From: Mariniflexile sp. TRM1-10
GTDB taxonomy: Bacteria; Bacteroidota; Bacteroidia; Flavobacteriales; Flavobacteriaceae
Assembly (NCBI RefSeq): GCF_003425985.1
Contig: NZ_CP022985.1
Span: forward strand, 1,215,501 to 1,279,500
DNA length: 64,000 nucleotides
Direction: 5' to 3'
The first letter of the stretch is position 1. Every line of letters begins with the position of its first letter. The notes below the pieces were generated by a model. It saw nothing but the letters and a program-made list of their open reading frames with translations, was not told the origin of the DNA and did no database searches. This document shows, piece after piece, positions 817-34,557 of this stretch. A program made the position numbers and the translations under genes.

Positions 817-955
817 TTAGTTATTATATACGACATCGTTCCAATCTGAAGCATCATTCATAATTGCTTAAAAACTCACACCTTTTTTAAGTACAGCTTT
901 TATTTCCCAAGTTCTACTCACACTAGAATTAAAATTGAACCATATGCCCAAACAG
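817..955 (-). pseudogene. Possible decayed gene tail
   Basis: Between the sigma factor and the GH28 gene the minus strand holds two adjacent protein-like but startless pieces. One is open through about 955-868 and reads ...WFNFNSSVSRTWEIKAVL... before a TAA. The other, 861-817, begins MNDASDWNDVVYNN before a TAA. Their composition looks coding rather than random, and together they could be the frameshifted C-terminus of a lost gene. The family was not recognised. The rest of the 761-1028 gap holds only the CAGGAT-repeat promoter region. Confidence 0.25.
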
Positions 956-1003
956 GATGCCACAGGATAGAATTAATTAATGCATGCTCTATTTTTACTA
1001 AAT
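951..1003 (+). promoter_or_regulatory. CAGGAT direct-repeat promoter region, copy 1 (GH28 gene)
   Basis: ACAGGATGCCACAGGATAG at 952-970 holds two CAGGAT half-sites spaced 10 bp apart, about one helical turn. A TATTTTTACTAAA box begins at 990, 38 bp after the first A. The same arrangement recurs at 2422 and 15932. The box resembles the Bacteroidetes -7 element and lies 39 bp before the GH28 ATG. Promoter function and the identity of the binding protein are inferred. Confidence 0.5.
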
Positions 1004-1028
1004 GCTAAAAGCATTAACTAAAGGATCT

Positions 1029-2405
1029 ATGAAAATAACTAAAACACTGCTACTTATTTTAATCCCCATAATATTTTCATGTAAAAAAGAAGATACTCAT
1101 ATTAAAATAATAGAAATACAAGTTGAAGCACCTTTTGAAATGCCCACTATTAAGGTACCCGACTTTAGCAACTGTAAGCAATTTTTAATTACAGATTTTG
1201 GAGCGGTTCAAGGTGACAAAGAACTCACATCTAATGCCATTTCAAAAGCCATTGATGAAGCAAACAAAATTGGCGGTGGCATCGTTATAATTCCTAAGGG
1301 CGAATGGCTTACTAAAAAAATTCATTTGAAAAGCCATGTTAATCTACATGTAAACAAAGATGCCATATTGCTTTTTTCTGAAAATCCTAAGGACTATTTA
1401 CCGGCAGTACACACCACTTGGGAAGGCATGGAATGTTACAACTATTCACCTCTAATATATGCCTATGAGTGTAAAAATATTGCTATTACAGGTGAAGGAA
1501 AGCTAAAAGCCAAAATGGCTATTTGGGAAACATGGTTTGCACGCCCAAAATCACATATGAACAGCTTAAAAAGGCTTTACTACTTAGCATCTTATAACAA
1601 ACCCGTTGAAGAACGTCAAATGGTTAACGATTCTGCTAACTTCCGCCCACACTTTATTCAATTTAACCGCAGTGAAAATATTTTACTTGAAGGTGTTTCT
1701 ATTGAAAACAGTCCGTTTTGGACCATTCACCCTTACCTTTCTAAAAACATGCTTATTAAAAATGTAAAAGTGAAAGCTCATGGACATAATAATGATGGTG
1801 TTGACCCAGAGATGAGTCAAAACATCCTAATTGAAGATTGTATTTTTGATCAAGGAGATGATGCCATTGCCGTAAAATCTGGAAGAAACCAAGATGCCTG
1901 GCGATTAAACACCCCTTCAAAAAACATCGTCATGAGAAATTGTACCATGAAAAACGGTCACCAATTATTGGCCATAGGCAGCGAATTATCTGGTGGTATA
2001 GAGAATGTGTTTGTTGAAAATTGTAATGTGGTTGATGGTGCTAAAATGTTTCACTTGGTATTTATAAAAACCAATGAGCGTCGTGGCGGCTATGTAAAAA
2101 ATATATACGTAGAAAATATTAAGGCAGGCAGCATACAAAATGGTGTTCTAGGTATAGAAACCGATGTGCTATACCAATGGCGGGACTTAGTGCCTACTAT
2201 AGAACGTAAGCTAACCCCCATAGAACATGTTTATTTAAAAAACATAAGGGCTACCAAAACCGAATACGTATCAAAAATCACAGGACAAGCTGAACTTCCT
2301 ATAAAAAATATTTTTCTAAACTATGTCGTTGTAGATTCCATTACAAGCGAAAAACACATTCATGACCATGTTGTTAATTTTAGTGAGTTATCAAAAACAG
2401 AATAA
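1029..2405 (+). CDS. GH28 polygalacturonase-type glycoside hydrolase, lipoprotein
   Basis: Family GH28 enzymes hydrolyse galacturonic acid linkages in homogalacturonan or rhamnogalacturonan. The start at 1029 gives 458 residues opening with a lipoprotein signal (MKITKTLLL...LIPIIFSC, Cys about 18), so the enzyme is probably tethered to the cell surface or periplasmic face. The right-handed beta-helix shows the GH28 catalytic set: NNDGVD at about 254-259 (Asp 256 and 259), QGDD at about 275-278 and NGH at about 309-311. A longer frame from a TTG at 1002 adds nine residues before the signal and is less likely. First gene of the plus-strand CAZyme block; a CAGGAT-repeat promoter region lies just upstream. 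Confidence 0.93.
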   Translation: MKITKTLLLILIPIIFSCKKEDTHIKIIEIQVEAPFEMPTIKVPDFSNCKQFLITDFGAVQGDKELTSNAISKAIDEANKIGGGIVIIPKGEWLTKKIHLKSHVNLHVNKDAILLFSENPKDYLPAVHTTWEGMECYNYSPLIYAYECKNIAITGEGKLKAKMAIWETWFARPKSHMNSLKRLYYLASYNKPVEERQMVNDSANFRPHFIQFNRSENILLEGVSIENSPFWTIHPYLSKNMLIKNVKVKAHGHNNDGVDPEMSQNILIEDCIFDQGDDAIAVKSGRNQDAWRLNTPSKNIVMRNCTMKNGHQLLAIGSELSGGIENVFVENCNVVDGAKMFHLVFIKTNERRGGYVKNIYVENIKAGSIQNGVLGIETDVLYQWRDLVPTIERKLTPIEHVYLKNIRATKTEYVSKITGQAELPIKNIFLNYVVVDSITSEKHIHDHVVNFSELSKTE

Positions 2406-2421
2406 CAATTGTTAAACAGGT

Positions 2422-2473
2422 AACAGGATGCCACAGGATAGAGTTTATTGTGGCAAGTTATATTTTTACTAAA
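2422..2473 (+). promoter_or_regulatory. CAGGAT direct-repeat promoter region, copy 2 (PL22 gene)
   Basis: ACAGGATGCCACAGGATAG recurs exactly at 2423-2441, preceded by a further CAGG at 2416. TATTTTTACTAAA begins at 2461, again 38 bp after the first A. The PL22 gene begins at 2639, so a transcript from here would have a leader of about 160 bases containing the hairpin at 2538-2581. Confidence 0.5.
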
Positions 2474-2537
2474 ATATCCTGTTGGATGTAGTTGATTATA
2501 TTAAAATTTAAAGTCAATTATAACACAACTACCAGTC

Positions 2538-2581
2538 TAAGCTTGTCGAAGACATTCAAAAGATGTATTTCGACAAGCTTA
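2538..2581. repeat. AAGCTTGTCGAA inverted repeat
   Basis: A perfect 13-bp inverted repeat, TAAGCTTGTCGAA at 2538-2550 and TTCGACAAGCTTA at 2569-2581, encloses an 18-base loop. It lies in the leader of the PL22 gene. One arm occurs again alone at 41688-41700, so this belongs to a dispersed short-repeat family. It has no T-run after either arm and so is not a typical terminator. Confidence 0.6.
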
Positions 2582-2638
2582 ATGTGTCAATAGAAATAAA
2601 ATTAAATAAGTATCTCTTTTGATACTAATATAAAAAAG

Positions 2639-3907
2639 ATGAAACCTATTAAAACCCTCCTACTATTCTTAATTTTGATAAGCTTCTCTTGTAAAGGAAA
2701 ACTAACCAAATCGGATGCAGCCAAAGACGCTAAAACAACTAGCATTCAAATTCCTATAATGCAAACAAGCAAAGCAAGTTCGTTAGCTAAAGTTTGGATA
2801 GATTCTACTACCGGACATAAAATAGAAAAATTGGTAAATAGAGCTGGCGATAACCGTAGTTTTTATTTCCATAACAATCCATTTTTAAAATCGGAAGACG
2901 GCAACAGCGATTTAATGATTTTCTCTGGAAGCACAGAAACGGGCAACCAGTTTTTTTCAGTCAATTTAAAAACAAAAAACATAGACCAAATTACCACAAG
3001 AAAAGGCCATAAAAGAGGTGAGATTCTTGGCAAAAAAACACGAAAAGTGTTTTATATGATACAAGACAGTGTTTTTGCAACCCATATTGATACCCATAAA
3101 ACTGAATTCATTTACAAATTCAGTAACGATGTTATTGGTTCTGTCACCAGTTTAAACGCTGATGAAACTTTATTGGGTGGCGCTTTAATAACCAAGGAAG
3201 AAAACGATATTTTTAAAAAGAATCCTAAAAAATCGGATTATTTTGACAAAATTTATGAAGCAAAGCTTAAAAGAAGCCTTATCACCATCCATGTGAATAC
3301 TAAGGAATTTAATAAAATTTATTCTGAAAACGCTTGGTTAAACCACATCCAATTTTCACCAACAGACCCCGATTTATTAATGTATTGCCATGAAGGACCT
3401 TGGCATAAAGTAGATCGTATTTGGAACATCCATATAAAAACAAAAAAGAATGAACTAATTCATAAAAGAACCGTTTACAGAGAAATTGCGGGTCATGAAT
3501 TTTTTAGCCCTGACGGAAACACCATTTGGTTCGACCTTCAAATTCCCAGAGGTGAAACCTTTTATTTAGCAGGAAAACATTTAGATACGGGAGAAGAAAC
3601 CAAATATGCCTTAAAACGGGACGAATGGTCTATACATTTCAATATATCACCAGATCAAAAAACCTTTGCTGGCGATGGTGGCGATGAAGGTCAGGTGGCC
3701 CATGCTAAAGATGGCATGTGGCTTTACCATTTTACACCGAAAGGAGACAGTTTGGTTTCAACTAAATTGGCAAACATGAAAAATCACGATTATGATCTAG
3801 AACCAAACGTTCACTTTTCTCCAGATGGAAAACAAATTATTTTTAGAGCCAATTTTGAAGGAAGCACACAAATTTATGCTGTAGACATTGAAAAACCTTC
3901 CTTATAA
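2639..3907 (+). CDS. ogl: Oligogalacturonate lyase, PL22, lipoprotein
   Basis: PL22 enzymes cleave short oligogalacturonides by beta-elimination, yielding 4-deoxy-5-keto-uronate products that feed into KDG formation. The 422 residues open with a lipoprotein signal (LILISFSC). The body matches the seven-bladed propeller family throughout, with SFYFHNNPFL near residue 80, TLNADETLLGGA near 178, ENAWLNHIQFSPTDP near 230, GHEFFSPDG near 285, GQVAHAKDG near 350 and LEPNVHFSPDG near 385. The GHEF and QVAH segments correspond to the regions carrying the metal ligands in characterised members. A lipoprotein signal is notable because many PL22 enzymes are cytoplasmic; here the depolymerisation step appears periplasmic or surface-bound. 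Confidence 0.92.
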   Translation: MKPIKTLLLFLILISFSCKGKLTKSDAAKDAKTTSIQIPIMQTSKASSLAKVWIDSTTGHKIEKLVNRAGDNRSFYFHNNPFLKSEDGNSDLMIFSGSTETGNQFFSVNLKTKNIDQITTRKGHKRGEILGKKTRKVFYMIQDSVFATHIDTHKTEFIYKFSNDVIGSVTSLNADETLLGGALITKEENDIFKKNPKKSDYFDKIYEAKLKRSLITIHVNTKEFNKIYSENAWLNHIQFSPTDPDLLMYCHEGPWHKVDRIWNIHIKTKKNELIHKRTVYREIAGHEFFSPDGNTIWFDLQIPRGETFYLAGKHLDTGEETKYALKRDEWSIHFNISPDQKTFAGDGGDEGQVAHAKDGMWLYHFTPKGDSLVSTKLANMKNHDYDLEPNVHFSPDGKQIIFRANFEGSTQIYAVDIEKPSL

Positions 3908-3984
3908 ATTTCAAACCAACTCAAATTTATAATCATTTGAAAAGTTTATTTTTAAAAACCAATACATACTAAAGCATTAAATAA

Positions 3985-6720
3985 ATGAAAATTAAGTTTA
4001 AACACGCACTCCTATTTTTAGCCTTTATATCTTTTTTTACCTGTAAAGTGAATGACCAAGACAAAGCATCGCCTTGGCCAGAACAAAGCAATGTAAACAA
4101 ACCTTGGACACGTTGGTGGTGGATGGGTAGCGCCGTAGATAAACCCAACATTAAATCGAGTTTAATAGATTTTCATAAAGCCGGTATTGGTGGTGTAGAA
4201 ATAACGCCCATTTATGGTGTAAAAGGACAAGAAGACAATTTTATTGATTACCTATCGCCAAAATGGGTAGATATGCTAAATTACACCATTACAGTGGCCG
4301 ATAGTTTGGACATGCAAGTTGATATGGTTTTAGGTACAGGCTGGCCTTATGGTGGTCCACAAGTTACTGCTAATAATGCCGCAACAAAATTATTGGTTGA
4401 AACTTATGAAGTAAAAAAAGATGAAACTTTCAATAAAGAAATTATTGCACAAAACGATAAAAACAAAGATATCGCACAACTACTAAATGTTTTAGCCTAT
4501 GGCAGCGACTCATCCTATGTAGATTTAACCTCAAATTTAAAAGGAAACCATTTAGAATGGAAAGCAACAAATACCAATTACACCATTTATGCCGTTTTTG
4601 CTGGTAAAACAGGGCAACAGGTTAAACGTGCTGCTCCCGGTGGAAGTGGATTTACCTTAGACCACTATTCATCTGAAGCATTATTCACGTACACCGAACC
4701 TTTTAACAAAGCACTTAAAGGTTTTGAAGGTAGATTACGCGCTATTTTTAACGACAGTTACGAAGTGTATGGCACCGATTTTACTCCGCTATTTTTTGGA
4801 GAATTTGAATCACGCCGTGGCTATGATTTAAGACCCTATTTACCACAATTATTAGATAATGAAGACACCGAAATTGGTAATAGAATAAAAAGCGATTATA
4901 GAGAAACCATATCAGATTTACTATTAAACAAATTTGATATTCCTTGGACAAATTGGGCACATTTTAAAAACTTTAAAACAAAGTTACAAGCACATGGGTC
5001 GCCCGGGAATTTAATAGATTTATATGCTTCTGCCGATATTCCAGAATGTGAAACTTTTGGCTCCATGCCTTATGATATCCCAGGGTTTAGACGGGAACAA
5101 GAAGATATTAGAGAAGGCGATGCCGATCCTGTTATGTTGAAGTTTTCATCATCGGCAGCACATATTTCGGGCAAACCTTTAACCTCATCAGAAACATTTA
5201 CTTGGCTACGTGACCATTTTAAAACAGCATTGTCCCAATGCAAACCTGAAGTTGAAGATTTATTTTTAAACGGTATAAACCATGTGTTTTTACATGGCTC
5301 TACCTACTCGCCAAAACAAGCCGAATGGCCTGGATGGAAATTCTATGCATCGGTTAACTTTAACCCTACCAATACCATTTGGGAAGATGTGCCTTCACTG
5401 TTTTCTTATATAGCGAACTGCCAATCGATGCTTCAATCGGGAAAACCAGACAATGAAACCCTATTGTATTGGCCTATTTATGATACTTGGGGCAAAAACT
5501 TAGGAGGAAACTTATTTTTTCAATTTAAAATCCACTCTTTAGATGAATGGTTGCACGATACACCATTTTACAACACAACAAAAAAGTTAATGGACAACGG
5601 CTATGGCGTCGATTTTATTTCCGATAATTTTATTGCACAAGCAACTTTTAAAGACGGACTGATTATGCTTCCGGGAGGCAACTACAAATCGTTAGTCATT
5701 CCTAATTGCGAAAAAATGCCAATGGCGACTTTAGAAAAGTTAATAGCATTAAAAAAGTCGGGCGCACCTATTATTTTTGAAGGCTTACCAAATTCGGTTC
5801 CAGGATTTTATAATTACGAAGCGAAAAACTCAAAATTATCACAAGTAATTTCAGAAAACAGCGGTCTTTTAAGCCTAACTTCAAACGTGTTTAAAGATTT
5901 AGAAACGGCAAAGGTTTACCCAGAAACTTTAGTTAAAACAGGGTTGAAATTTATTAAAAGAGCTATTGATGGTGAAAAAATATACTATATAGTTAATCAC
6001 ACATCCCAAATTATAGATGATTATATTCCACTGGCCATAGAAAACAAAGAAGTCATCATTTTAGACCCTTTAACTAAAAAATATGGCAATGCCCTTGTAA
6101 AAAAAGAAACCAATGCTACCTTAGTAAAACTTCGTATAGAACCCGGGCAATCGTTTATTCTTAAAACAGAAAACACTAAATCTTATCAAAATTGGAATTA
6201 TTTTAAAGCCAGCGAAAATCCCATAGAACTAAAAGGTGACTGGCAAATTAGTTTTGAAAAAGGAGGACCGGAATTGCCTCCATCGGCTAAAATAAACACG
6301 TTACAATCTTGGACTACTTTAAGCCCTGAGGCAGAAGCTTTCTCAGGCACTGCACTTTACACCTTGAAATTTAATGCGCCAAATGTTGAGGCAGACAATT
6401 GGAAATTAAATCTAGGTGATGTTAGGGAAAGTGCTAAAGTTTGGCTTAACGGGAATTATATTGGAAATCTTTGGTCTGTACCTTTCAGCATCAATTTAGG
6501 ACAACTAAAAAAAGGGGAAAATGAATTAAAAGTACAGGTTACCAATCTTGCTGCCAATAGAATCCGTGCCAAAGAACTTAGAGGTGAAGAATGGAAAATT
6601 TTCTATGAAATCAATATGGTAGATAAAGACTATAATAAGTTTGACGCTACAAAATGGCAACCCATGCCTTCTGGTTTACTGGGCCCCATTTCAATAACGC
6701 CTTTAAAAGAAACTGAATAA
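3985..6720 (+). CDS. GH106 alpha-L-rhamnosidase-like glycoside hydrolase, lipoprotein
   Basis: GH106 enzymes remove alpha-L-rhamnose from rhamnogalacturonans and related glycans. The protein is 911 residues, with a lipoprotein signal (LAFISFFTC). The family N-terminal signature is clear: KPWTRWWWMGSAVDKPN at about 38-54, GIGGVEITPIYGVKGQE at about 67-83 and MVLGTGWPYGGP at about 114-125. A C-terminal beta-sandwich (about 745-890) has the sugar-binding-like pattern KVWLNGNYIGNLWSVPF. It is somewhat shorter than many family members, which often exceed 1,000 residues, but no break is visible. It follows PL22 after 77 bp and probably shares its transcript. Confidence 0.88.
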   Translation: MKIKFKHALLFLAFISFFTCKVNDQDKASPWPEQSNVNKPWTRWWWMGSAVDKPNIKSSLIDFHKAGIGGVEITPIYGVKGQEDNFIDYLSPKWVDMLNYTITVADSLDMQVDMVLGTGWPYGGPQVTANNAATKLLVETYEVKKDETFNKEIIAQNDKNKDIAQLLNVLAYGSDSSYVDLTSNLKGNHLEWKATNTNYTIYAVFAGKTGQQVKRAAPGGSGFTLDHYSSEALFTYTEPFNKALKGFEGRLRAIFNDSYEVYGTDFTPLFFGEFESRRGYDLRPYLPQLLDNEDTEIGNRIKSDYRETISDLLLNKFDIPWTNWAHFKNFKTKLQAHGSPGNLIDLYASADIPECETFGSMPYDIPGFRREQEDIREGDADPVMLKFSSSAAHISGKPLTSSETFTWLRDHFKTALSQCKPEVEDLFLNGINHVFLHGSTYSPKQAEWPGWKFYASVNFNPTNTIWEDVPSLFSYIANCQSMLQSGKPDNETLLYWPIYDTWGKNLGGNLFFQFKIHSLDEWLHDTPFYNTTKKLMDNGYGVDFISDNFIAQATFKDGLIMLPGGNYKSLVIPNCEKMPMATLEKLIALKKSGAPIIFEGLPNSVPGFYNYEAKNSKLSQVISENSGLLSLTSNVFKDLETAKVYPETLVKTGLKFIKRAIDGEKIYYIVNHTSQIIDDYIPLAIENKEVIILDPLTKKYGNALVKKETNATLVKLRIEPGQSFILKTENTKSYQNWNYFKASENPIELKGDWQISFEKGGPELPPSAKINTLQSWTTLSPEAEAFSGTALYTLKFNAPNVEADNWKLNLGDVRESAKVWLNGNYIGNLWSVPFSINLGQLKKGENELKVQVTNLAANRIRAKELRGEEWKIFYEINMVDKDYNKFDATKWQPMPSGLLGPISITPLKETE

Positions 6721-6742
6721 AATTTAAACAATATAAAATAAA

Positions 6743-6792
6743 ACATCCATATACGGTTTCACGATATATATGGGAATGATATATGGATGTTC
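6743..6792. terminator. Imperfect hairpin between GH106 and GH105 genes
   Basis: Left arm AACATCCATATA and right arm TATATGGATGTT can pair across a loop of about 25 bases. No long T-run follows, so it may be a transcript-stabilising or processing structure rather than a strong terminator. A short AGCGCAGTCGAAG segment follows at about 6806-6818, a sequence type common in flavobacterial intergenic repeats. Confidence 0.4.
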
Positions 6793-6850
6793 CAAGCCTG
6801 TGCTGAGCGCAGTCGAAGCATGACCAAATTAAAATAATAAATATAAACAG

Positions 6851-7975
6851 ATGAAAAGATCACTTTTATTTATAAGCCTGGGCTTCTTAATTGCTCAAAT
6901 ATCATTTGGCCAACAGCCTTTTAATAAAAAAGAGGTATTGGCACAAATGGAATTAGCCAACAAATACTTTATGGAAAAATGGCCAGATGTGGGCAAAACC
7001 ATAGTAACCAATAGAGAACGTCCAAGCAATATATGGACGCGCGGGGTGTATTATGAAGGTTTAATGGCTTTATATGAAATTTACCCAAGAGAAGCCTATT
7101 ATGATTATGCTTATGCGTGGTCTGAATTTCACAATTGGGGTTTTAGAAACGGTAACGCCAACCGCAATGCAGACGATTATTGTGCCGCTCAAACCTATAT
7201 AGATTTATACAATTTAGAACCAGATCCTAAGAAACTTAAAAACACAAAGTCTTGCATAAACATGTTGCTTAATACCCCACAGTTAGACGATTGGTCATGG
7301 ATTGATGCCATACAAATGGGCATGCCTGTGTTTGCGAAATTGGGTGTGTTAGAAAACGATAATCGCTATTATGAGAAAATGTACGACATGTACATGTACA
7401 CAAGAAACAAGCATGGTGATAACGGACTTTTTAACCCAAAAGATGGGTTGTGGTGGCGCGATGCCGATTTCGACCCGCCTTACACAGAACCTAATGGCGA
7501 AGATTCCTATTGGAGCCGTGGTAATGGTTGGGTAATTGCGGCATTGGCAAAAGTATTGGCTATCATTCCTGAAGATGCTCCACACAGAAAACAATATATT
7601 GTCGATTTAAAATCGATGGCAGAAGCTTTAGTGCCAATACAAAGAAAAGATGGCTTTTGGAACGTAAGCTTGCACGACCCAAACCATTATGGTGGTAAAG
7701 AAACCTCGGGTACTGCCCTATTTGTTTATGGCATGGCTTATGGTGTAAACAACGGTATTTTAGATAAAAACAAATACTTGCCTGTAATAGAAAAAGCTTG
7801 GAATGCCATGATTAAGGAAGCCTTACACAAAAATGGCTTTTTAGGTTACTTGCAATCTACAGGAAAAGAACCTAAAGATGGACAACCATTGTCTTATGAT
7901 AAAGTTCCTGATTTTGAAGATTATGGTTTAGGATGTTTTCTATTAGCTGGAGCTGAAATTTATAGAATGCAGTAA
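6851..7975 (+). CDS. GH105 unsaturated rhamnogalacturonyl hydrolase
   Basis: GH105 enzymes hydrate and release the unsaturated uronic acid left at the non-reducing end by PL4, PL9, PL11 or PL22 lyases. The protein has 374 residues, close to the family norm, and begins with a Sec signal peptide (LLFISLGFLIAQISFGQ). The alpha/alpha-barrel signatures are visible: WTRGVYYEGLMALYE near 58-72, RNADDYCAAQTY near 103-114 carrying the catalytic Asp candidate, SYWSRGNGW near 219-227 and KETSGTALFVYGMAYG near 284-299. It fits directly downstream of the lyases encoded in this locus (PL22, PL4). It is probably periplasmic. Confidence 0.93.
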   Translation: MKRSLLFISLGFLIAQISFGQQPFNKKEVLAQMELANKYFMEKWPDVGKTIVTNRERPSNIWTRGVYYEGLMALYEIYPREAYYDYAYAWSEFHNWGFRNGNANRNADDYCAAQTYIDLYNLEPDPKKLKNTKSCINMLLNTPQLDDWSWIDAIQMGMPVFAKLGVLENDNRYYEKMYDMYMYTRNKHGDNGLFNPKDGLWWRDADFDPPYTEPNGEDSYWSRGNGWVIAALAKVLAIIPEDAPHRKQYIVDLKSMAEALVPIQRKDGFWNVSLHDPNHYGGKETSGTALFVYGMAYGVNNGILDKNKYLPVIEKAWNAMIKEALHKNGFLGYLQSTGKEPKDGQPLSYDKVPDFEDYGLGCFLLAGAEIYRMQ

Positions 7976-8083
7976 ATTATAAAACACCCAGTAACAATCT
8001 GCCTTCCCCCAACGGGTAGATTTGTAAACCAAATGATAATTAAATATTATATTTAGCCTTTAAAAAACAATAAGCATTAATAG

Positions 8084-10993
8084 ATGAAATATTTAATATT
8101 TGCCTGTACATTATTTTTTGGTTACAAATCAATGCCGAATAATACGTCTGTAGAAAAAACCAACACAATTAAAACGCTCGATTTCGAGATTTATTCACAA
8201 AACACTAAAGCCGTTATTTTATATGAAAAAAATGGAAACCCTTTAGATTCTATATCGGCTTATTTACTAGCAGATGATATTTTTAAAGTCACCAATTACA
8301 AACCCGAAGTTGTTACAAGCATAAAACAAGCAAAAGGTAACGTAATTGTTATTGGAACTATTAATTCCAAACTTATTGCTTCCTTTATAAATAAAAAAGA
8401 ACTAAAGGCAGGATTTGAAAACCAATGGGAAAGCTATCTCTATAAAACCATTTCAAATCCAAACAGAAAAATAAAAAACGCCTTTATTATTGCAGGCACC
8501 AATCCACGTGGTACAGCCTATGGCGTTTTTAATATATCAAAAAAAATAGGCGTTTCACCATGGTATTGGTGGGCTGATGTGCCTGTCAAACAAAGTAACG
8601 AACTCATTTTAAACCAACCAGACTATTATAGCAATCCGCCTTCAGTCACTTATCGTGGCATTTTTTTAAATGACGAAGATTGGGGTTTGCAACCATGGGC
8701 AGCCAAAACTTTTGAACCCGAAACAGGCGATATTGGACCTAAAACATACTCCAAAATATTTGAACTTTTATTACGCCTAAATGCCAATACCATTTGGCCC
8801 GCTATGCATCCAAGTACCAAAGCATTTTTTTATTATCCAAACAATGCTAAAATGGCAAGCTTATATAACATAGTTATTGGCACCTCCCATGCAGAACCTA
8901 TGCTACGTAACAATGTAGACGAATGGGATAAAAATAAATTTGGAAGTTTTAATTACAAAACCAACAAAGACCATGTGTACAAGTATTGGGAAACCCGAGT
9001 AAAGGAAGCAAAAAATATCGATGCTATTTACACCATGGGCATGCGCGGTGTTCATGATAGCGGTATGGAAGGTGTGAAAAGTAAAGATGAAGCTGTCTCG
9101 CTATTAGACGGAATTATTTCAGACCAACGAGGTTTGCTCAAAAAGCATATCAATCCAAACATTGAAAAAATACCACAAGCCTTCACCGTTTACAAAGAAG
9201 TGCTGGATTTATATAAAAATGGCCTTCAAGTTCCTGATGATATAACGCTCGTTTGGACGGACGATAACTACGGATACATTCGAGCTTTAAGTAATGCCGA
9301 AGAACAAAAACGTTCTGGCGGTGGCGGTGTTTATTACCATGCATCCTATTGGGGCAGACCACATGATTATTTGTGGTTAAGCACAACACACCCTGCTTTA
9401 ATACGCGAGGAAATGATGAAAGCTTACAACTTAAACAACAATGAGATTTGGATTTTAAATGTAGGTGATATCAAACCTATAGAGTATAATACCCAACTGT
9501 TTTTAGATATGGCTTATGACGCAGAAAAGTTTCAGAATCCAGAATATATTATCGAGCATCAACAACAATTTTATGGTGATATTTTTGGCTTTAAATTTGC
9601 TGAAAATATTACCAAAATTAAAGAATCTTATTTCGATCTGGCCTTTGAACGTAAACCGGAATTTATGGGTTGGAGCCAAACCGAACCTACCACGCCAATT
9701 TCAACGACGGCTTATAATCCCTTTGCAAATGGTGATGAAATTCAAAAAAGAATGGATGCATACCAAACTATAGATAAGCACGTTGAAGCTATTGAAATGC
9801 AATTGCCAGAAAATTTAAAAAGTTCATTTACACAATTGATAAGCTATCCGGTAAAAGCATCGACTAGCATGAACAAAAAGTTTTTATACCGCGATAAGGC
9901 TTTAAGCTATGCTAAACAAGGGCGTTTGAGTGCTTCGAAATATAAAACATTATCGAATGACGCATTTGAATATATTGAAGCCTTAACTAAAAACTATAAT
10001 GGGCTATCTAACGGAAAATGGCAAGGCTTTATGGATATGAAACCGCGAAATCTTCCTGTTTTCGATAATCCTTCAATAGAATTAGAATTTGCAGAAGCTA
10101 ACGACGCTTTTGGATTCGCCTTAGAAGACACGCTATCAACAATAGAAGGGATAAAACGTTTACCAACATTTTATGTAGGAGATTCATCATCATATTTCAT
10201 AGATATTTTTCTAAAAAAAGCGACTCGGGTTGCTTGGCAAATTAAAGAGCTGCCTAATTGGATACATATTACCAAATTATCTGGAATTTTAAATAATACA
10301 GACATGTTGGAAGACAGAATTTTTGTTTCAATAGATTGGGATGCATGGAAACAAGCCGGTGAACCAATCTCTGAAATCATCAAAATCCAATTAAATTCCG
10401 AAGAAAAACATATTCAAATTAATATCTCAAATAGCTATAGAAACATTTCTAAAAACAATGTTGTTGAAAAAAACGGAAAGGTTGTTCTATACGCAAACCA
10501 TTATTCAAACAATGAAGCGAAAAACAATTTTCTTTGGAAAGAAATTATAGGGCTTGGACATTCTAAATCAGTCATGGAATCGCTTCCTTTAAATAGTTCT
10601 CCCTTATTAAATCATGAAAACGCTCCGGTTTTAAGCTATGAGCTATTTACCGAAACAGTAACCCAAGATGCGACACTTCATTTAAGTGCCATCCCAACGC
10701 ATCCCATAACCACAGATAGCGAACTTAGGATTGCGGTACAATGGAACAACGAACCAATCCAAATGGTGAATTTTAAAACTGAAGGCAGAAGCAGTACTTG
10801 GAAAGATAATGTATTAAGTAATAAAACTGTTGGCAAAATACAAGTTCCTATCACTGAAAAAGGAAAACAGACGCTTAAAATTTACATGATGGATCCTGGC
10901 GTGTTATTAGATTATATTATTTTAAACACAAAAGACAAAAACATATTACCATATCAACTCATACCAGAAACTAAAATTAATTCTTTTAAATAA
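8084..10993 (+). CDS. GH115 alpha-glucuronidase-family glycoside hydrolase
   Basis: GH115 enzymes release alpha-1,2-linked (4-O-methyl)glucuronic acid, best known from glucuronoxylan and also seen in arabinogalactan-protein degradation. The 969-residue length is typical. Family segments are visible: GVSPWYWWADVPV near 161-173, TYRGIFLNDEDWGLQPWAAK near 189-208, NTIWPAMHPSTKAF near 232-245 and LVWTDDNYGYIR near 388-399. The hydrophobic N-terminus (MKYLIFACTLFFGY) is a short, weak signal peptide, probably enough for export. Only seven bases separate it from the GH2 gene, so the two are co-transcribed. Its substrate in a pectin locus is unclear; a glucuronic acid side branch is the natural guess. 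Confidence 0.9.
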   Translation: MKYLIFACTLFFGYKSMPNNTSVEKTNTIKTLDFEIYSQNTKAVILYEKNGNPLDSISAYLLADDIFKVTNYKPEVVTSIKQAKGNVIVIGTINSKLIASFINKKELKAGFENQWESYLYKTISNPNRKIKNAFIIAGTNPRGTAYGVFNISKKIGVSPWYWWADVPVKQSNELILNQPDYYSNPPSVTYRGIFLNDEDWGLQPWAAKTFEPETGDIGPKTYSKIFELLLRLNANTIWPAMHPSTKAFFYYPNNAKMASLYNIVIGTSHAEPMLRNNVDEWDKNKFGSFNYKTNKDHVYKYWETRVKEAKNIDAIYTMGMRGVHDSGMEGVKSKDEAVSLLDGIISDQRGLLKKHINPNIEKIPQAFTVYKEVLDLYKNGLQVPDDITLVWTDDNYGYIRALSNAEEQKRSGGGGVYYHASYWGRPHDYLWLSTTHPALIREEMMKAYNLNNNEIWILNVGDIKPIEYNTQLFLDMAYDAEKFQNPEYIIEHQQQFYGDIFGFKFAENITKIKESYFDLAFERKPEFMGWSQTEPTTPISTTAYNPFANGDEIQKRMDAYQTIDKHVEAIEMQLPENLKSSFTQLISYPVKASTSMNKKFLYRDKALSYAKQGRLSASKYKTLSNDAFEYIEALTKNYNGLSNGKWQGFMDMKPRNLPVFDNPSIELEFAEANDAFGFALEDTLSTIEGIKRLPTFYVGDSSSYFIDIFLKKATRVAWQIKELPNWIHITKLSGILNNTDMLEDRIFVSIDWDAWKQAGEPISEIIKIQLNSEEKHIQINISNSYRNISKNNVVEKNGKVVLYANHYSNNEAKNNFLWKEIIGLGHSKSVMESLPLNSSPLLNHENAPVLSYELFTETVTQDATLHLSAIPTHPITTDSELRIAVQWNNEPIQMVNFKTEGRSSTWKDNVLSNKTVGKIQVPITEKGKQTLKIYMMDPGVLLDYIILNTKDKNILPYQLIPETKINSFK

Positions 10994-11000
10994 TTATTAC

Positions 11001-14000
11001 ATGAAAAAGGCCGTACTGGTAACAACAATAATATTATTATCGTTTTTTCTAAACATAAACCTATCACATTCCCAAGATTTTGAAAGAATTAAATATAATT
11101 TCAATTCTGATTGGAAATTAAAAACAGGTGAACACCCACAAGCTATCGACAGTAATTTTAATGATAGCAATTGGAAACAAGTTACACTACCTTATGCATA
11201 CAATCAACAAGAAACCTTTAAAGAAGAGATAACCAATTTTACCACAGGTATTGTATGGTATAGAAAAACATTTAAACTTCCTGAAAATACCATTGATAAA
11301 AAAGTATTTATTGAGTTTGAAGGTGTTCGGCAAGGAGGCACCATTTATGTTAATGGCAAAAAGGTAGGCTTGCATGAAAATGGTGTTATGGCATTTGGTT
11401 TCGATATTTCAAAATTTGTAAAACCTTTTCCTTTTGAAAATATTATAGCGCTTCGCATCGATAACGACTGGAAATACAAAGAGACTGCAACAGGGGCTAC
11501 ATACCGTTGGAATAATACCAATTTTAATGTTAATTTAGGTGGTATTCCTAAAAATGTATATTTACATGTTACCAATAAATTATATCAAACCCTTCCTCTC
11601 TACTCAAATTTAAAAACGACAGGCGTTTATGTGTACGCAAAGGATATTGATATAAAAAGCGCAAGTGCCTCAATACATGTGGAATCTGAAATTAAAAACG
11701 AATTCAATACACCTAAAATTGTTGAGTTGTATGTTGAAGTCCATGATCTAAATGGCCATAAAATAGCCGAATTCAATGGCGGTAAAAATTCAATACAACC
11801 TCAAGAAACTTTAGTTTTAAAAGCTGATAAATATATTGAAAACCTAAATTTCTGGAGTTGGGGGTATGGTTATTTGTATACAGTAAAAAGCATCTTGAAA
11901 GTTGATGGAAATAGTATTGATGAAGTGAGTACAAAAACTGGCTTTCGTAAAACAGCCTTTAGACATGGTGAAGTTGTTTTAAACGACCGCGTTATTCAAA
12001 TCAAAGGTTATGCACAACGCACCAGTAACGAATGGCCTGCCATTGGCATGTCGGTTCCTGCATGGTTAAGCGATTTTAGCAATAGAATGATTGTTGAAGG
12101 CAATGGAAATTTGGTACGATGGATGCATGTAACACCCTGGAAACAGGACATAGAATCTTGCGACCGTGTTGGACTCATGCAAGCCATGCCTGCAGGTGAT
12201 GCCGAAAAAGATTCACAAGGTGATCAATGGAAACAAAGGGTTGCACTAATGCGTGATGCCATTATTTACAACCGAAACAATCCCAGTATTATTTTTTATG
12301 AATGTGGTAACGAAGTTATAAGTGAAGCGCACATGCATGAAATGAAAAGCCTTAGGAACACTTACGATCCCCATGGTGGTCGCGCCATTGGTTCACGCGA
12401 AATGCTAGATAGCCAAGAAGCAGAATATGGTGGCGAAATGTTATACATAAACAAAAGTGCCAGAAAACCCCTTTGGGCAACCGAGTATTCCAGAGATGAA
12501 GGCTTGAGAAAGTATTGGGACGAATTTAGTCCACCATACCATAAAGATGGAGAAGGTGGTACAACGCATACCAATGTTAACGGAAGTAAAGTTGTAGATG
12601 CAAGCCCCTACAACCGTAACCAAGATTCGCATGCCATTGAGAATGTTACCCGCTGGTATGATTATTATATAGAAAGACCTGGTACAGGGCACAGAGTGAG
12701 CTCTGGCGGCGTAAATATTGTGTTTTCTGACACGAATACCCATTTTAGAGGTGCCGAAAATTACAGGAGAAGTGGTGAAGTAGATCCCATGCGTATTCCT
12801 AAAGATGGCTTTTTTGCACATCAAGTCATGTGGGATGGCTGGGTTGATATTGAAAATTACAACAGCCATATTTTAGGCCATTGGAATTATAAAGAAAATG
12901 TTATAAAAAATATCTATGTTGTATCTTCTGGTGATAAAGTGGAACTTTTTATAAACGGCACATCTAAAGGTTTTGGAAAACAAAGCAAACAGTTTTTATT
13001 CACTTTTGAAAACATAAAATGGGAAGCTGGAACGATTAAAGCTGTTAGTTATAACACACATGGAAAAATAATTAGTGAAGCCAGTAAAACAACCGCTGGA
13101 GAGCCTTTTGAAATTAAATTGACACCGCATACAAATCCTACGGGGTTTCTGGCAAACAATGCTGATGTTGCTTTAGTTGATGTTGAAGTGGTAGACAAAA
13201 ATGGCCATAGATGCCCTATTGATAATAGCCTAATTGAATTTTCTTTAAAAGGCGATGCAACATGGTTAGGAGGTATTGCTCAAGGTCCAGGTAATTACGT
13301 CCTTTCTAAAAAGCTTCCTGTTGAAAATGGTGTTAACAGAATTATGATCAAGTCAGGTTTGAAAGCAGATAAAATTAGTGTTATAGCTAAATCGAATCAT
13401 TTAAAATCTGCAAAAATCGTCTTAGAAACACGTCCTTTTATTACCAATAATGGTCTTTCAACAGAATTACCAAACCACAATTTACCTTCAAATCTAGAAA
13501 GAGGTCCTACTCCAAAGACACTTTCTTATACCATAAAAAGACACCCTGTTTTTATAAGTCATGCTTCGGCACAATCCAATAACGATACTGCTTATAATAG
13601 TCATGATGATAACGAACTCACCGAATGGACCAATGATGGCCGAATAAGTACAGGACAAATAACCTATACCCTAGCGAAACCATCGGTAGTAACCACATGT
13701 GTTGTTAAGCTTACAGGGTGGCGCACTAAAAGCTACCCGATTCGAATACTAGCCGATGACGAAGAAGTATATCAGGGAAAGACTTGGCAAAGTTTAGGAT
13801 ATATTACCATCCCTTTAAAACCAGTTTTGGCAAAAAAAATAACCATTGAGTTGGTTGGTGACAATACCGATAAAGACGCCTTCGATAAAATTGTAGAAGT
13901 AGATCCTACAAAAGAATTAGACTTATATAAAGACAAAAATGCTACCAATGCCAAAGGGCAATTGCGTATTGTAGAAATTGAATTTTATGAAAGCCCATAA
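11001..14000 (+). CDS. GH2 family glycoside hydrolase with C-terminal discoidin-like domain
   Basis: GH2 covers beta-galactosidases, beta-glucuronidases and beta-mannosidases; the exact sugar cannot be read from the sequence. Of 999 residues, 1-24 are a Sec signal, about 30-200 the GH2 sugar-binding domain (GIVWYRKTFKLPE, GTIYVNGKKVG), about 205-315 the Ig-like domain, and about 320-600 the TIM barrel. The acid/base Glu is in YECGNEV (about E438) and the nucleophile in WATEYSRDEG (about E495). A DUF4982-like Ig domain follows, then a galactose-binding/discoidin-like fold at about 845-998 (ISHASAQSNNDTAYN, DDNELTEWTNDG). Translationally close to the GH115 gene, suggesting sequential action on one side chain. 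Confidence 0.92.
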   Translation: MKKAVLVTTIILLSFFLNINLSHSQDFERIKYNFNSDWKLKTGEHPQAIDSNFNDSNWKQVTLPYAYNQQETFKEEITNFTTGIVWYRKTFKLPENTIDKKVFIEFEGVRQGGTIYVNGKKVGLHENGVMAFGFDISKFVKPFPFENIIALRIDNDWKYKETATGATYRWNNTNFNVNLGGIPKNVYLHVTNKLYQTLPLYSNLKTTGVYVYAKDIDIKSASASIHVESEIKNEFNTPKIVELYVEVHDLNGHKIAEFNGGKNSIQPQETLVLKADKYIENLNFWSWGYGYLYTVKSILKVDGNSIDEVSTKTGFRKTAFRHGEVVLNDRVIQIKGYAQRTSNEWPAIGMSVPAWLSDFSNRMIVEGNGNLVRWMHVTPWKQDIESCDRVGLMQAMPAGDAEKDSQGDQWKQRVALMRDAIIYNRNNPSIIFYECGNEVISEAHMHEMKSLRNTYDPHGGRAIGSREMLDSQEAEYGGEMLYINKSARKPLWATEYSRDEGLRKYWDEFSPPYHKDGEGGTTHTNVNGSKVVDASPYNRNQDSHAIENVTRWYDYYIERPGTGHRVSSGGVNIVFSDTNTHFRGAENYRRSGEVDPMRIPKDGFFAHQVMWDGWVDIENYNSHILGHWNYKENVIKNIYVVSSGDKVELFINGTSKGFGKQSKQFLFTFENIKWEAGTIKAVSYNTHGKIISEASKTTAGEPFEIKLTPHTNPTGFLANNADVALVDVEVVDKNGHRCPIDNSLIEFSLKGDATWLGGIAQGPGNYVLSKKLPVENGVNRIMIKSGLKADKISVIAKSNHLKSAKIVLETRPFITNNGLSTELPNHNLPSNLERGPTPKTLSYTIKRHPVFISHASAQSNNDTAYNSHDDNELTEWTNDGRISTGQITYTLAKPSVVTTCVVKLTGWRTKSYPIRILADDEEVYQGKTWQSLGYITIPLKPVLAKKITIELVGDNTDKDAFDKIVEVDPTKELDLYKDKNATNAKGQLRIVEIEFYESP

Positions 14001-14088
14001 TGGGCATTTAACAAGACTTACTTAATGTAAATCCATTTGATTGTATTTAAGACAACCCACCAAAAAAATTAAAGAAATAAAAAGCAAG

Positions 14089-15885
14089 ATGAGTAAACTA
14101 AGTAAAGCATTAATTTTCGGATTCGTATTTTTTGGACTAACAAATATGGGCATGTCCCAAAACGAAGAAATTAAACTTTGGAAAAAAGTTCCGGGAGCTA
14201 TCGAAAATAAAACTTACAAAGAAGAATTCCGATTAAATTCTGAAGGTGAAGCTACCGGTATTCGAAAAGTTACAGAGCCTACACTTAAGGTTTTTTTAGC
14301 AGATAACAACCATTCAAAAACCACCGCAGTTGTTATTTGTCCCGGTGGTGGTTATGCGCTTTTATCACATGACAAAGAAGGTGATAAAATTGCGGAATGG
14401 CTAAATTCCATAGGTATTTCTGCTTTTGTGCTTAAATATAGGCTGCCAAGTAATATTATTATGGAAGACAAAACCATAGGTCCTTTACAAGATGCGCAAG
14501 AAGCCATTAGAACGTTAAGACGAAATGCCAAAAATTGGAACTTAGACCCCAATAAAATTGGCGTCATAGGGTTTTCAGCAGGTGGGCATTTAGCTTCAAC
14601 AATAGCTACCCATTATAATGATAAGGTATATGCTTCAGATGAAACAAGTGCGCGCCCCGATTTCTCAATGCTAATCTATCCCGTTATTTCTATGGAAGAT
14701 GGCATTACCCATAATGGTTCAAAAGAAAATTTATTAGGGAAAGACCCTTCGGAAGCATTAATTGAAAAATATTCAAACGAAAAACAAGTAAATGAGCAAA
14801 CACCACCAACCATTCTAATTCATGCTACCGATGATGGTGCTGTACCGGTTGAAAACAGCATCAACTATTACTTAGCTTTAAAAGAAAACAACGTACCTAC
14901 CGAAATGCACATTTACGAAAATGGTGGTCACGGTTTTGGTTTGGGTAGGTTTGGAACACATCTTAATTGGCCAAAAGCTTGTGAAAACTGGCTGACAGCA
15001 AATAAATTTATTCCTGAAAAAGATATTTATATGTTTTCTTATTTTAAAGGAAACGGCGAAGATGGTTTGCATTTAGCCTTTAGTGAAGATGGTTACAAAT
15101 GGGAAGCTCTTAAAAACGATACCTCTTTTTTAACACCCGAAGTTGGCAAGGATAAATTAATGCGCGACCCATGTATTATTAAAGGCGGCGATGGCTTATA
15201 CCATATGGTATGGACAGTGAGCTGGACAGATAAAGGTATTGGTTACGCTTCTTCAAAAGACCTAATAAATTGGTCTAAGCAAGAATTCATCCCTGTTATG
15301 GAACATGAAAAAGGCACACGAAACACCTGGGCTCCAGAAATAACTTATGATGAGACTTCAAAAGAATATATCATCTATTGGGCTTCTACTATTGTAGGAG
15401 CATTTCCAGAAACACAATCTACCGAAGACGACGGCTATAACCACAGAATGTACTATACAACCACCAAAGATTTTAAGTCTTTTAGTAAAACCAAACTTTT
15501 ATACGAACCCGGATTCAATGTGATTGATGGAACCATTCAGAAGTTAGATAACAAATTTGTGATGTTTCTAAAAGACGAAACCAAAAAACCTGCACAAAAA
15601 AACCTTAAGGTAGCTTTTAGCGACCATTTGACAGGCCCTTACACGAATGCCAGTGAACCCATTACAGGCAATTATTGGGCAGAAGGACCAACAGCCATTC
15701 AAATTGATGGCAATTGGATTGTCTATTTTGATAAATATAGAGATCATAAATATGGTGCCATACAATCTAAAGATCTAAAAACATGGGAAGACATTTCAGA
15801 TAACGTACAATTTCCAAAAGGTGCCAGACATGGTAGTATTTTTAAAACATCAGCTTCAACTTTTTCAAAATTAAAACTTCACTAA
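14089..15885 (+). CDS. Secreted esterase fused to GH43-like five-bladed propeller
   Basis: The start at ATG 14089 gives 598 residues with a Sec signal peptide (ALIFGFVFFGLTNMGMSQ). A longer frame from a TTG at 14041 only adds lysine-rich leader. Residues about 40-300 form an alpha/beta hydrolase of the acetyl-xylan-esterase-like type, with the oxyanion segment VVICPGGGYALLSHDKEG, nucleophile elbow GFSAGG near 160 and catalytic His in ENGGHGFGLG near 285. Residues about 305-598 form a GH43/GH32-like beta-propeller (LMRDPCIIKGGDGLYHMVWT, TRNTWAPEITYDETSKEY, YWAEGPTAIQIDGNW) with plausible acidic residues. It would deacetylate and remove an arabinose- or galactose-type side sugar in one polypeptide. 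The reaction specificity is inferred. Confidence 0.85.
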   Translation: MSKLSKALIFGFVFFGLTNMGMSQNEEIKLWKKVPGAIENKTYKEEFRLNSEGEATGIRKVTEPTLKVFLADNNHSKTTAVVICPGGGYALLSHDKEGDKIAEWLNSIGISAFVLKYRLPSNIIMEDKTIGPLQDAQEAIRTLRRNAKNWNLDPNKIGVIGFSAGGHLASTIATHYNDKVYASDETSARPDFSMLIYPVISMEDGITHNGSKENLLGKDPSEALIEKYSNEKQVNEQTPPTILIHATDDGAVPVENSINYYLALKENNVPTEMHIYENGGHGFGLGRFGTHLNWPKACENWLTANKFIPEKDIYMFSYFKGNGEDGLHLAFSEDGYKWEALKNDTSFLTPEVGKDKLMRDPCIIKGGDGLYHMVWTVSWTDKGIGYASSKDLINWSKQEFIPVMEHEKGTRNTWAPEITYDETSKEYIIYWASTIVGAFPETQSTEDDGYNHRMYYTTTKDFKSFSKTKLLYEPGFNVIDGTIQKLDNKFVMFLKDETKKPAQKNLKVAFSDHLTGPYTNASEPITGNYWAEGPTAIQIDGNWIVYFDKYRDHKYGAIQSKDLKTWEDISDNVQFPKGARHGSIFKTSASTFSKLKLH

Positions 15886-15930
15886 ACCATTTGCCCTGTA
15901 AAAATGTATTTCATCTATATTCTGATGAAT

Positions 15931-15984
15931 AACAGGTAGGTACAGGATGCTAAGACAATTGTATCATAATATTTTTAAGAAGTG
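15931..15984 (+). promoter_or_regulatory. CAGGAT-type promoter region, copy 3 (T9SS protein gene)
   Basis: ACAGGTAGGTACAGGATGC at 15932-15950 is a diverged copy: CAGG at 15933 and CAGGAT at 15943 keep the 10-bp spacing. TATTTTTA begins at 15970, 38 bp after the first A, the same distance as in the copies at 952 and 2423. The gene start is at 16040. Confidence 0.45.
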
Positions 15985-16039: not shown

Positions 16040-17107
16040 ATGAAAACAACTTTACTAAAAAACATTTTAACCATGTGTGTTTTGGTCTTCTCTGTGGGGG
16101 CAATAAATGCGCAAGTAATTACATGGACAGGAGTATCTGATTCCAATTTTCTAAACACAGCCAATTGGGATTTGGGCACAATACCAAATTCTACCAGCGA
16201 TGTTACTATTGCCGCCTCTACTAATAGCTCCATATACAATATGGCTTTAAGCACCGTTGATTCTGGAAATTCTACTAATTATATCAGCCATTTAATAATT
16301 CAATCTGGTGGACAATTAACAGTATCTGCACCTATAAACATTACCAGTAGTGGAAATAATTATACAGGAGGCAACCTAAAGCTTGAAGATGGAGGTAGTA
16401 TGAATTTTAGAAATGCACTTTATTTAGGGATTACAAGCAATCCTGCAACAGTAAATATCGATGGTGGGACTCTTAATTCAAAGTCATTTCTAATTATTAG
16501 TGAAAGAAGTGACTGTACAATGAATATAAATGGAGGTACAGTATCTGTAGATCAAAATAGTAATGGAAGGGCTATTATAATAGGTAATTATTATGCTGTT
16601 GGAATAGTAAATCTTAACGAAGGCACTCTTAAAACTAACCCATTATTGAATGGTACTGCTGCGCTTACTATTGCAGAAAATGGTAAAGGCGATCCAAATG
16701 CTTCTGGTTATTTGATGATTGATAATGGAACACTACAGATGGGAGGCGACCAACAAACATTCGTTCAAGGTTATGTTACAGCTGGCAAAATAAAACCTGC
16801 AGCAGGCAAACAAATTGTTGTTACTTACGATTCAACTGCTGCTGTTACTTATGTAACCGCTACAACACCTTTAAGTATTAATGATGAAACATCAATTGTT
16901 TCTACAAATGTTAATGCTATTGGAAATAAAATTTATGTATCTAATGTTAAATCAACTTCAGAAATTAACATTTACAGTATTACAGGTGCTTTAGTAAAAT
17001 CATTTAAAACAAATGAAGATACTAACTTTAGTTTTAAATCTGGTTTATGGATCGCTACTGTTAGAACTCTTGAAGGTCAAAAATCCATTAAATTATTAAT
17101 GAAATAA
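16040..17107 (+). CDS. Secreted beta-repeat protein with T9SS sorting domain
   Basis: The 355-residue protein has a Sec signal (MCVLVFSVGAINAQ) and opens with VITWTGVSDSNFLNTANWD, a pattern found at the start of passenger-like beta-helix proteins. Residues about 60-270 are short beta repeats of the type VNIDGGTLNSK, MNINGGTVSV and VNLNEGTLKT. The C-terminal 75 residues (NIYSITGALVKSF, GLWIATVRTLEG, SIKLLMK) are a T9SS type A sorting domain, so it is secreted and attached to the cell surface. Its repeat module closely parallels the N-terminus of the PL4 lyase encoded next (both have a MNFRNALYLG / LNFRSAVYLG step). No catalytic domain is visible; a substrate-binding or scaffold role is inference. 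Confidence 0.8.
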   Translation: MKTTLLKNILTMCVLVFSVGAINAQVITWTGVSDSNFLNTANWDLGTIPNSTSDVTIAASTNSSIYNMALSTVDSGNSTNYISHLIIQSGGQLTVSAPINITSSGNNYTGGNLKLEDGGSMNFRNALYLGITSNPATVNIDGGTLNSKSFLIISERSDCTMNINGGTVSVDQNSNGRAIIIGNYYAVGIVNLNEGTLKTNPLLNGTAALTIAENGKGDPNASGYLMIDNGTLQMGGDQQTFVQGYVTAGKIKPAAGKQIVVTYDSTAAVTYVTATTPLSINDETSIVSTNVNAIGNKIYVSNVKSTSEINIYSITGALVKSFKTNEDTNFSFKSGLWIATVRTLEGQKSIKLLMK

Positions 17108-34349: not shown

Positions 34350-34365
34350 TTGTAATCGATTGCAC
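34350..34365. promoter_or_regulatory. LacI-type operator upstream of kduD
   Basis: TTGTAATCGATTGCAC is the inverse of the operator at 26177-26192 over 14 central bases (TGCAATCGATTACA on the minus strand). It ties the uronate operon to the LacI gene at 26393. Confidence 0.75.
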
Positions 34366-34557
34366 AAAAATAATGAAATTATTTAAAAATACTAATTTTA
34401 TTAAGTGTATCATAAAAAAAATTATTTAAAATCCGAAATCATACATTAAACTATAAATAAATTATTGTCGAAATTTAGGTTAAAATATATTTACTGCCAT
34501 CCTGTACTGTACCGCCTAGTCGTTCAAAACACATACATTTAAGATTAATTGAACCTA

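Follow-up and report, generated by a model that had tools for sequence, protein, structure and literature searches.

A distance-locked direct-repeat promoter element of rhamnose and rhamnogalacturonan genes in Mariniflexile, with a GntR-family protein as its probable activator

What reads the paired CAGG element that stands before pectin genes of the flavobacterium Mariniflexile sp. TRM1-10? The stretch analysed here (the window) comprises 64,000 nucleotides, positions 1215501-1279500 of a genome that forms one contig of 4,858,325 bases. Within it a 10-bp direct repeat, ACAGGAYASTACAGGAYRS, is followed at a fixed distance by a Bacteroidota -7 box of the TAnnTTTG type. The element belongs to a real, widespread, distance-locked regulon, and it is probably the site of P0001, a GntR-family protein that would act as a rhamnose-responsive activator and take over from the -33 box. 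What was computed from the genomes is the motif with its fixed geometry, the larger part of the regulon's content, its conservation, and its co-occurrence and linkage with the P0001 gene.

An earlier note on this DNA described three copies, with the A that precedes the repeat at 952, 2423 and 15932 and TATTTTTA starting exactly 38 bp later, and all three are present as described. The layout CAGG-N6-CAGG-N23-TATTTTTA occurs at window positions 953-997, 2424-2468 and 15933-15977, and in each the box begins exactly 27 bases after the C of the second CAGG (+27). Copies 1 and 2 do share a stretch, although it counts 21 bases (AACAGGATGCCACAGGATAGA) and not the 19 reported. A search of the window with a relaxed box and at most two mismatches gave four matches, compared with 0.87 +/- 0.98 in 100 shuffles, and three of the four were exact and were these copies. 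The copy before a kduD-like gene, noted as weaker, has the same geometry, and its first half-site is degenerate, as in many promoters of the rhamnose gene rhaEW. The sites, boxes and genes in the window are as follows.

951..970, + strand: site 1, 10-bp direct repeat AACAGGATGCCACAGGATAG, half-site score 27.5
990..997, + strand: site 1 -7 box TATTTTTA, predicted +1 at 1002 (box at -12..-5 as in F. psychrophilum)
1029..2405, + strand: GH28 gene, likely start 1029, lipoprotein-like signal MKITKTLLLILIPIIFSC
2424..2441, + strand: site 2, direct repeat CAGGATGCCACAGGATAG
2461..2468, + strand: site 2 -7 box TATTTTTA, predicted +1 at 2473
2639..3907, + strand: PL22 oligogalacturonate lyase gene, first gene behind site 2
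15933..15950, + strand: site 3, direct repeat CAGGTAGGTACAGGATGC
15970..15977, + strand: site 3 -7 box TATTTTTA, predicted +1 at 15982
16040..17107, + strand: gene behind site 3 for a 355-amino-acid protein without a Pfam or NCBIfam match
17360-20245: PL4 rhamnogalacturonan lyase with a type IX sorting domain, second gene behind site 3
34497..34514, - strand: site 4 (kduD copy), CGGTACAGTACAGGATGG, second CAGG at 34504
34470..34477, - strand: site 4 -7 box TAAATTTC, exactly at +27, predicted +1 at 34465
34351..34364, - strand: LacI-operator-like palindrome TGCAATCGATTACA, between the predicted +1 of site 4 and the kduD-like gene

Across the whole genome, the layout with a relaxed box and at most one mismatch produced 15 matches, five of them exact, compared with two for the reversed pattern. 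Of the 15, 12 make up a clean set; the remaining three (L009, L013 and L014) fall inside open reading frames (ORFs) and were not used for the matrix. The consensus of the clean set is ACAGGATAGTACAGGATAG, 19 bases, then TAnnTTT[GA]. The earlier note held that its reading would fall if matches were scattered at random or inside genes. Half-sites searched without the box (CAK-N6-R-CAGGA-YRS) gave 18 matches compared with two in the reversed control, and 14 of the 18 are intergenic. Ten of these have TAnnTT at exactly +27, two have TAnnATTG (the RHS loci described below) and two have TTnATTTG (sites 2752695 and 4612158); none of the four matches inside ORFs has a box. A box at +27 also accompanies two sites whose first half is degenerate, one at kduD (34504, minus) and one at 4510997, minus (TAAATTTG), giving 16 sites in total, all between ORFs. 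A looser half-site search with up to three mismatches mixes real and chance matches (18 compared with six in the control).

Downstream genes were assigned by Pfam and NCBIfam. Outside the window, the sites (genome coordinates) and the gene of the candidate regulator are as follows.

767071: site before PL11
1198087: site before GH28-DUF4861
1198259-1199305: gene of the GntR-family regulator P0001, 348 amino acids, 16 kb upstream of the window
1199366: site before GDSL esterase-GH2
1208749: site before GH88-sulfatase
1373810: site before PL11-PL11-GH2
2751230: site before a DUF4998/DUF5013 protein
2752695: site before fasciclin-SusC-SusD
4511170: site before RhaEW, RhaI-like, FGGY kinase and class II aldolase genes
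4510997, minus strand: site before SDR-UxuA, then lactate-utilisation-like genes
4612158 (L330:12166), minus strand: site 0.35 kb from a sodium:solute symporter gene, then acetyl-CoA synthetase; tentative
1086323-1086366, minus strand: site of an RHS-type locus (L035:494-8123)
1555329-1555372, minus strand: site of an RHS-type locus (L039:41-8655), gene about 0.7 kb away

Most targets fit together as one programme directed at rhamnogalacturonan-I and its monomers, and the rhamnose catabolic operon of this genome is among them. Site 4511170 lies in the promoter of RhaEW, which scores well above its NCBIfam cut-off (TIGR02632, 947 bits vs 568); the RhaI-like protein falls below its own cut-offs. 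The symporter and acetyl-CoA synthetase site would perhaps serve acetate freed by pectin acetylesterases. As the earlier note proposed, sites stand upstream of pectin genes and mark a regulon distinct from the LacI operators, with a possible overlap at kduD. The sub-regulon it described holds up; it is genome-wide and centred on rhamnose and rhamnogalacturonan. The RHS loci (an RHS-repeat gene plus DUF6443, with an Imm33-like gene following in one) carry sites that are among the best copies of the motif, with the boxes TATCATTG and TATTATTG. Their two promoters are alike over the entire stretch from repeat to box, a promoter duplicated within this genome and not found in the five other genomes of the genus that were searched. 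Several sites with TAATATTG at +27, a recurrent variant box that also occurs at RHS loci (TAnnATTG), were observed in Flavobacterium (L258, L261 and L265).

The gene for P0001 lies between sites 1198087 and 1199366, and its ortholog in another genome of the genus (G001) likewise lies between two sites. In G016 the ortholog and rhaEW are oriented divergently around a site, and in G007 it is the second gene behind a site. The motif is conserved in related genomes, a point on which the earlier note had made its reading depend: the strict pattern, which includes the box, has 248 matches in 65 of 299 genomes of the family, compared with two in the reversed control. GntR homologs separate into orthologs, with at least 50% identity, and a remainder with at most 44%. 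Genomes with an ortholog hold 235 of the 248 strict sites, and a strict site is present in 52 of 60 such genomes compared with 13 of 239 others (P = 4.5e-37), the 13 holding one match each. All 41 genomes with at least two strict sites have the ortholog, and in the eight ortholog genomes that lack a strict site, rhaEW is nevertheless preceded by a site whose box or half-site is a variant. Among genomes encoding RhaEW, a strict site was found in 51 of 59 with the ortholog and in 1 of 11 without it. Physical linkage was counted over 58 rhaEW genes, one per ortholog genome, leaving out one of the two G215 copies and the partial G007 gene; in 46 of the 58 the GntR gene lies less than 3 kb from rhaEW in divergent orientation, with most gaps between 150 and 370 bp.

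A separate set of 80 named GntR loci (Mariniflexile, Aestuariibaculum, Algibacter, Leeuwenhoekiella, Flavobacterium, Chryseobacterium and others; site score cut-off 15) gave 82 matches, near-identical loci and one register-shifted match included, of which 75 have the box; the reversed sequences gave none. Presence and absence within the genus told little when scored with a stricter pattern, which matched 11 of 40 genomes: G002 and G003 (orthologs of 62% and 90% identity) have one doubtful match each, and G004 has neither ortholog nor site. By association the case for P0001 is strong. A response regulator, which the earlier note had named as one candidate, gives way to a GntR-family regulator as the most likely reader, given the co-occurrence and the linkage with rhaEW. 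Tandem pairs of GntR genes occur near rhaEW in G064, G090, G152, G172 and G182, and these could possibly act as heteromers on two half-sites.

How firmly is the repeat tied to the box? There are 71 RhaEW matches in 70 genomes, and 68 upstream regions were used, with our own genome and the partial genes of G007 and G317 left out. Scored for the best half-site match without the box, using a matrix trained on sites found with the box and a cut-off set after the ranking had been seen, 58 of the 68 promoters reached at least 13. Ortholog genomes supply 57 of these (all of their 58 promoters but that of G147), and G084 supplies the other. TA..TT.[GA] lies at exactly +27 in 57 of the 58, the exception being G236 (CATATTTG); the genomes are related and the counts are not independent. 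The next best offset among those tested (10 to 44) has four, and in 500 shuffles the looser TA..TT reached at most eight at any offset. Within the box, TA is present in 57/58, TT in 58/58 and a last-position G in 51/58. Selection appears to act on the two elements and on their distance, since little information resides in the columns that separate repeat from box, and a spacer so poorly conserved argues against mere shared ancestry of the sites.

The -33 consensus of flavobacterial sigma-A promoters is TTTG. This element is absent from the rhaEW promoters: the GG of the second half-site (positions +2 and +3) fills its place in 58 of 58, and it cannot be present because two of its positions are always G. 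We take the layout of half-sites and box to be the arrangement of a class II activator. The sigma-A box of F. psychrophilum lies at -12 to -5 with the consensus TAnnTTTG (PMC9723704, in part), and the same placement here locates the half-sites near -49 and near -39, in the region that a -33 element would occupy. The earlier note had argued for an activator from the one-turn spacing of the half-sites and their fixed distance to the -7 box; the geometry is as it described, and activation is suggested by that geometry.

The N-terminal part of P0001 is a GntR winged helix (PF00392, E 9.9e-14, 51.2 bits vs a cut-off of 27) that also matches PDB 4egy (E 1.5e-07) and other winged-helix structures in PDB. 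The C-terminal part has no Pfam match. An AlphaFold model was made of L221, an ortholog of 90% identity (pLDDT 86.1, pTM 0.70), and its 50 best Foldseek matches are LacI-family and ribose-binding-type proteins (TM 0.44-0.53 by query length). On this model, the C-terminal part is predicted to be a sugar sensor of the LacI/ribose-binding type. The arrangement of the half-sites was read from 116 distinct sites outside the fetched rhaEW promoters, some of which are rhaEW sites from other loci. A-Y-A-S, which repeats the second half, occupies positions -6..-3, free in the pattern, in 77 of the 116. GTAC at -8..-5, which would give the palindrome GTAC-N-GTAC, was found in 28. A head-to-tail arrangement is favoured by this difference; a palindromic operator, seen in many rhaEW promoters and weaker elsewhere, was rejected.

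Seven divergent GntR relatives of about 39-44% identity were compared. Four adjoin rhaEW (G040, G084, G128 and G241), two adjoin a GH106-like gene (G057 and G266), and that of G044 lies in the same 16 kb as rhaEW. The helix SRDTVEKAY becomes SRDTIVRAY in G241, G057 and G266 and ends in VVKAY in G128 (partly read). CAGAAC- or CAGAAT-type repeats accompany three of these four relatives with a changed recognition region (G241, G128 and G057), and no clear repeat of either type was found in G266. The comparison covers few genomes, with two sites read by eye; it suggests that recognition helix and motif changed together, possibly in one event.

The sites are not confined to pectin genes. In G007 and G016 they lie directly before sulfatase-rhamnosidase fusion genes (L081:9987-13499 and L087:4955-8473), a GH78-type rhamnosidase gene (L084:6571-8400) and sulfatase-like genes. 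The genes behind other sites in these genomes have no family assignment, and one scanned GH78 gene (L080:12934-15684) has no site immediately before it. A make-up of sulfatases and rhamnosidases is what would be expected for ulvan, a sulfated rhamnose polymer. These sites would fit ulvan use. The G016 hybrid two-component regulator gene (L089:9026-13099) lies between sites at 8817 (minus) and 13339 (plus), both of which point away from it, toward sulfatase-like genes.

Because rhamnose is the common denominator of the target polymers, the ligand would be L-rhamnose or an early catabolite. Direct binding and activation rather than repression are, like this ligand, what we infer from the promoters and the associations above. 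In the mechanism we propose, rhamnose polymers (rhamnogalacturonan-I here, ulvan-like polymers in some relatives) would release the ligand. The regulator would then sit on both 10-bp half-sites, arranged head to tail between about -50 and -32 with a centre near -41, make up for the missing -33 element and bring sigma-A polymerase to the box of the TAnnTTTG type. Genes for depolymerases and transporters would thereby be switched on in concert with the rhamnose and galacturonate pathways. We give about even chances to a broader proposal, that an obligate GntR activator takes over the -33 contact of sigma-A, and that throughout the flavobacteria one distance-locked switch keyed to L-rhamnose unifies the responses to chemically different polymers, rhamnogalacturonan-I from land plants and sulfated ulvan from green algae, while in this strain it would also have captured RHS-type loci, including one that carries an immunity-like gene.

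Several observations weigh against activation by P0001. A rhamnose programme does not readily account for targets such as the RHS-type loci, the DUF4998 gene and the symporter. In G147, which carries the ortholog, none of the 11 strict sites is at rhaEW, and 34 of the 80 named GntR loci lack a site of score 15 in the fetched stretch; these are mostly from Chryseobacterium and Epilithonimonas but include the closest relative, L221, and L228, L229, L238 and L286. Half-site match 1093534 (L035:15535), directly before the ECF sigma gene of a second ECF/FecR pair, has no box and may be due to chance. The 28 sites with GTAC are those a palindrome would produce. GntR regulators usually read palindromes and repress, and head-to-tail binding would be unusual among them. 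A GntR-family alginate regulator of another marine flavobacterium, Zobellia galactanivorans, is reportedly a repressor, going by the title of Dudek et al. 2020. That title is cited in PMC12323373 and PMC9296495 (each in part), and AraR of C. bescii was inferred to repress (PMC8579813, in part).

These GntR precedents, together with the overlap of sites and promoter, are what commend the same protein on the same sites as a repressor, blocking polymerase at -33/-7 until released by a rhamnose catabolite. Blocking, however, would not need the spacing to the -7 box that is the same in 57 of 58 promoters, and the promoters look activator-dependent, since a TTTG -33 element cannot lie at the GG positions; we consider repression unlikely. 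It is more improbable still that a DeoR-, AraC- or HTCS-type regulator reads the motif and that the GntR gene is a passenger of rhamnose loci. DeoR-type rhamnose regulators of other phyla do bind two imperfect direct repeats with a periodicity of 10-11 bp (PMC3870299, in part), and one site in our genome has a DeoR gene 0.9 kb away, but the DeoR protein is present in 12 of 299 genomes while sites are present in 65, and it was rejected on that ground. An HTCS gene does lie between two G016 sites, though both point away from it. Repeats of about 21 bp are described for AraC rhamnose regulators (PMC3870299, in part) and an average of 21 bp between sites for HTCS_Rgu proteins (PMC3878776, in part), and both types were rejected against a motif with a period of 10. 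Between the families compared, GntR and DeoR, the motif follows the GntR ortholog and not the pathway, as the single strict site among the 11 RhaEW genomes without an ortholog indicates. Chance, or simple promoter duplication within one locus, merits next to no credence. Sites 1 and 2 may be a duplication, given their 21 shared bases, and the two RHS-locus promoters are alike, but the spacers between motif and box are hardly conserved, and the reversed controls (248 matches vs 2 in 299 genomes, 82 vs 0 in the 80 named loci) led us to reject a chance origin.

At site 1, an alternative ORF start of the GH28 gene, at 1002, coincides with the predicted +1. An ECF sigma gene (window 131-760) adjoins this site; a FecR-type anti-sigma gene, followed by SusC and SusD, is divergent from it (locus also listed at L037:7401-8558). 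We set this sigma factor aside by inference as the reader of the motif: the box belongs to the sigma-A class, and the repeat does not correspond to a sigma -35 element. Site 2 has an extra CAGG 7 bp upstream, at 2417, and the leader between it and PL22 contains an inverted repeat, AAGCTTGTCGAA ... TTCGACAAGCTT, at window 2539-2580. The PL22 gene is followed by GH106, GH88/105, GH115, GH2 and esterase-GH43 genes (Pfam). Behind site 4 lie genes for a kduD-like SDR, UxaC, MFS, a mannitol-dehydrogenase-type (UxaB-like) protein and altronate dehydratase. The palindrome at 34351-34364 is one we presume to be LacI-like from its resemblance to LacI operators. Its position between the predicted +1 and the gene suggests that GntR-type and LacI-type control may overlap at kduD, with dual control of the galacturonate operon.

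Among known systems, Bacillus subtilis AraR resembles P0001 in joining a GntR winged helix to a LacI-like sugar domain. It is a repressor of palindromic operators, unlike the direct-repeat activator proposed here. FucR of Bacteroides has a GntR/LacI-like chimeric architecture. The Zobellia alginate regulator is likewise a GntR-family protein of a polysaccharide pathway, differing in its substrate, alginate, and in being a repressor by title. FucR (BT1272) and ManR (BT2103) are GntR-family regulators of sugar pathways in Bacteroides (PMC3878776, in part). By description, not by sequence comparison, FucR is like P0001 in family and in serving a sugar pathway of the Bacteroidota. The workflow in Bacteroides sought palindromic motifs, and the regulons of FucR and RhaR are single operons (PMC3878776, in part), whereas here a fixed-spacing direct repeat controls dispersed depolymerase loci. 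RhaR (BT3768) of Bacteroides exerts positive control over L-rhamnose catabolism (PMC3870299, in part) and differs from P0001 in belonging to the AraC family and in that single-operon regulon. The DeoR-family RhaR of other phyla shares the repeat periodicity and differs in protein family, with the DeoR protein of our genome in only the 12 genomes given above. HTCS_Rgu-1 and HTCS_Rgu-2 of B. thetaiotaomicron, hybrid two-component proteins of the AraC type, are predicted to regulate rhamnogalacturonan loci via direct repeats (PMC3878776, in part), a likeness to the present motif from which protein type and period set them apart. Rhamnose regulators in the cited part of PMC3870299 are of the AraC, DeoR and LacI types, and flavobacteria are not mentioned there. 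No GntR-family regulator of rhamnose or rhamnogalacturonan genes in flavobacteria was found in the open-access papers searched, with subscription papers and supplements outside that scope.

If P0001 acts as proposed, the motif and its spacing would provide a sequence rule for predicting which flavobacterial genes serve the use of rhamnose-rich plant and algal polymers. It would also offer a promoter of fixed geometry, with a named regulator, for testing how sigma-A promoters of the Bacteroidota are activated, and would make P0001 an unusual GntR protein that acts as an activator on direct repeats. The same system might form a base for rhamnose-inducible tools.

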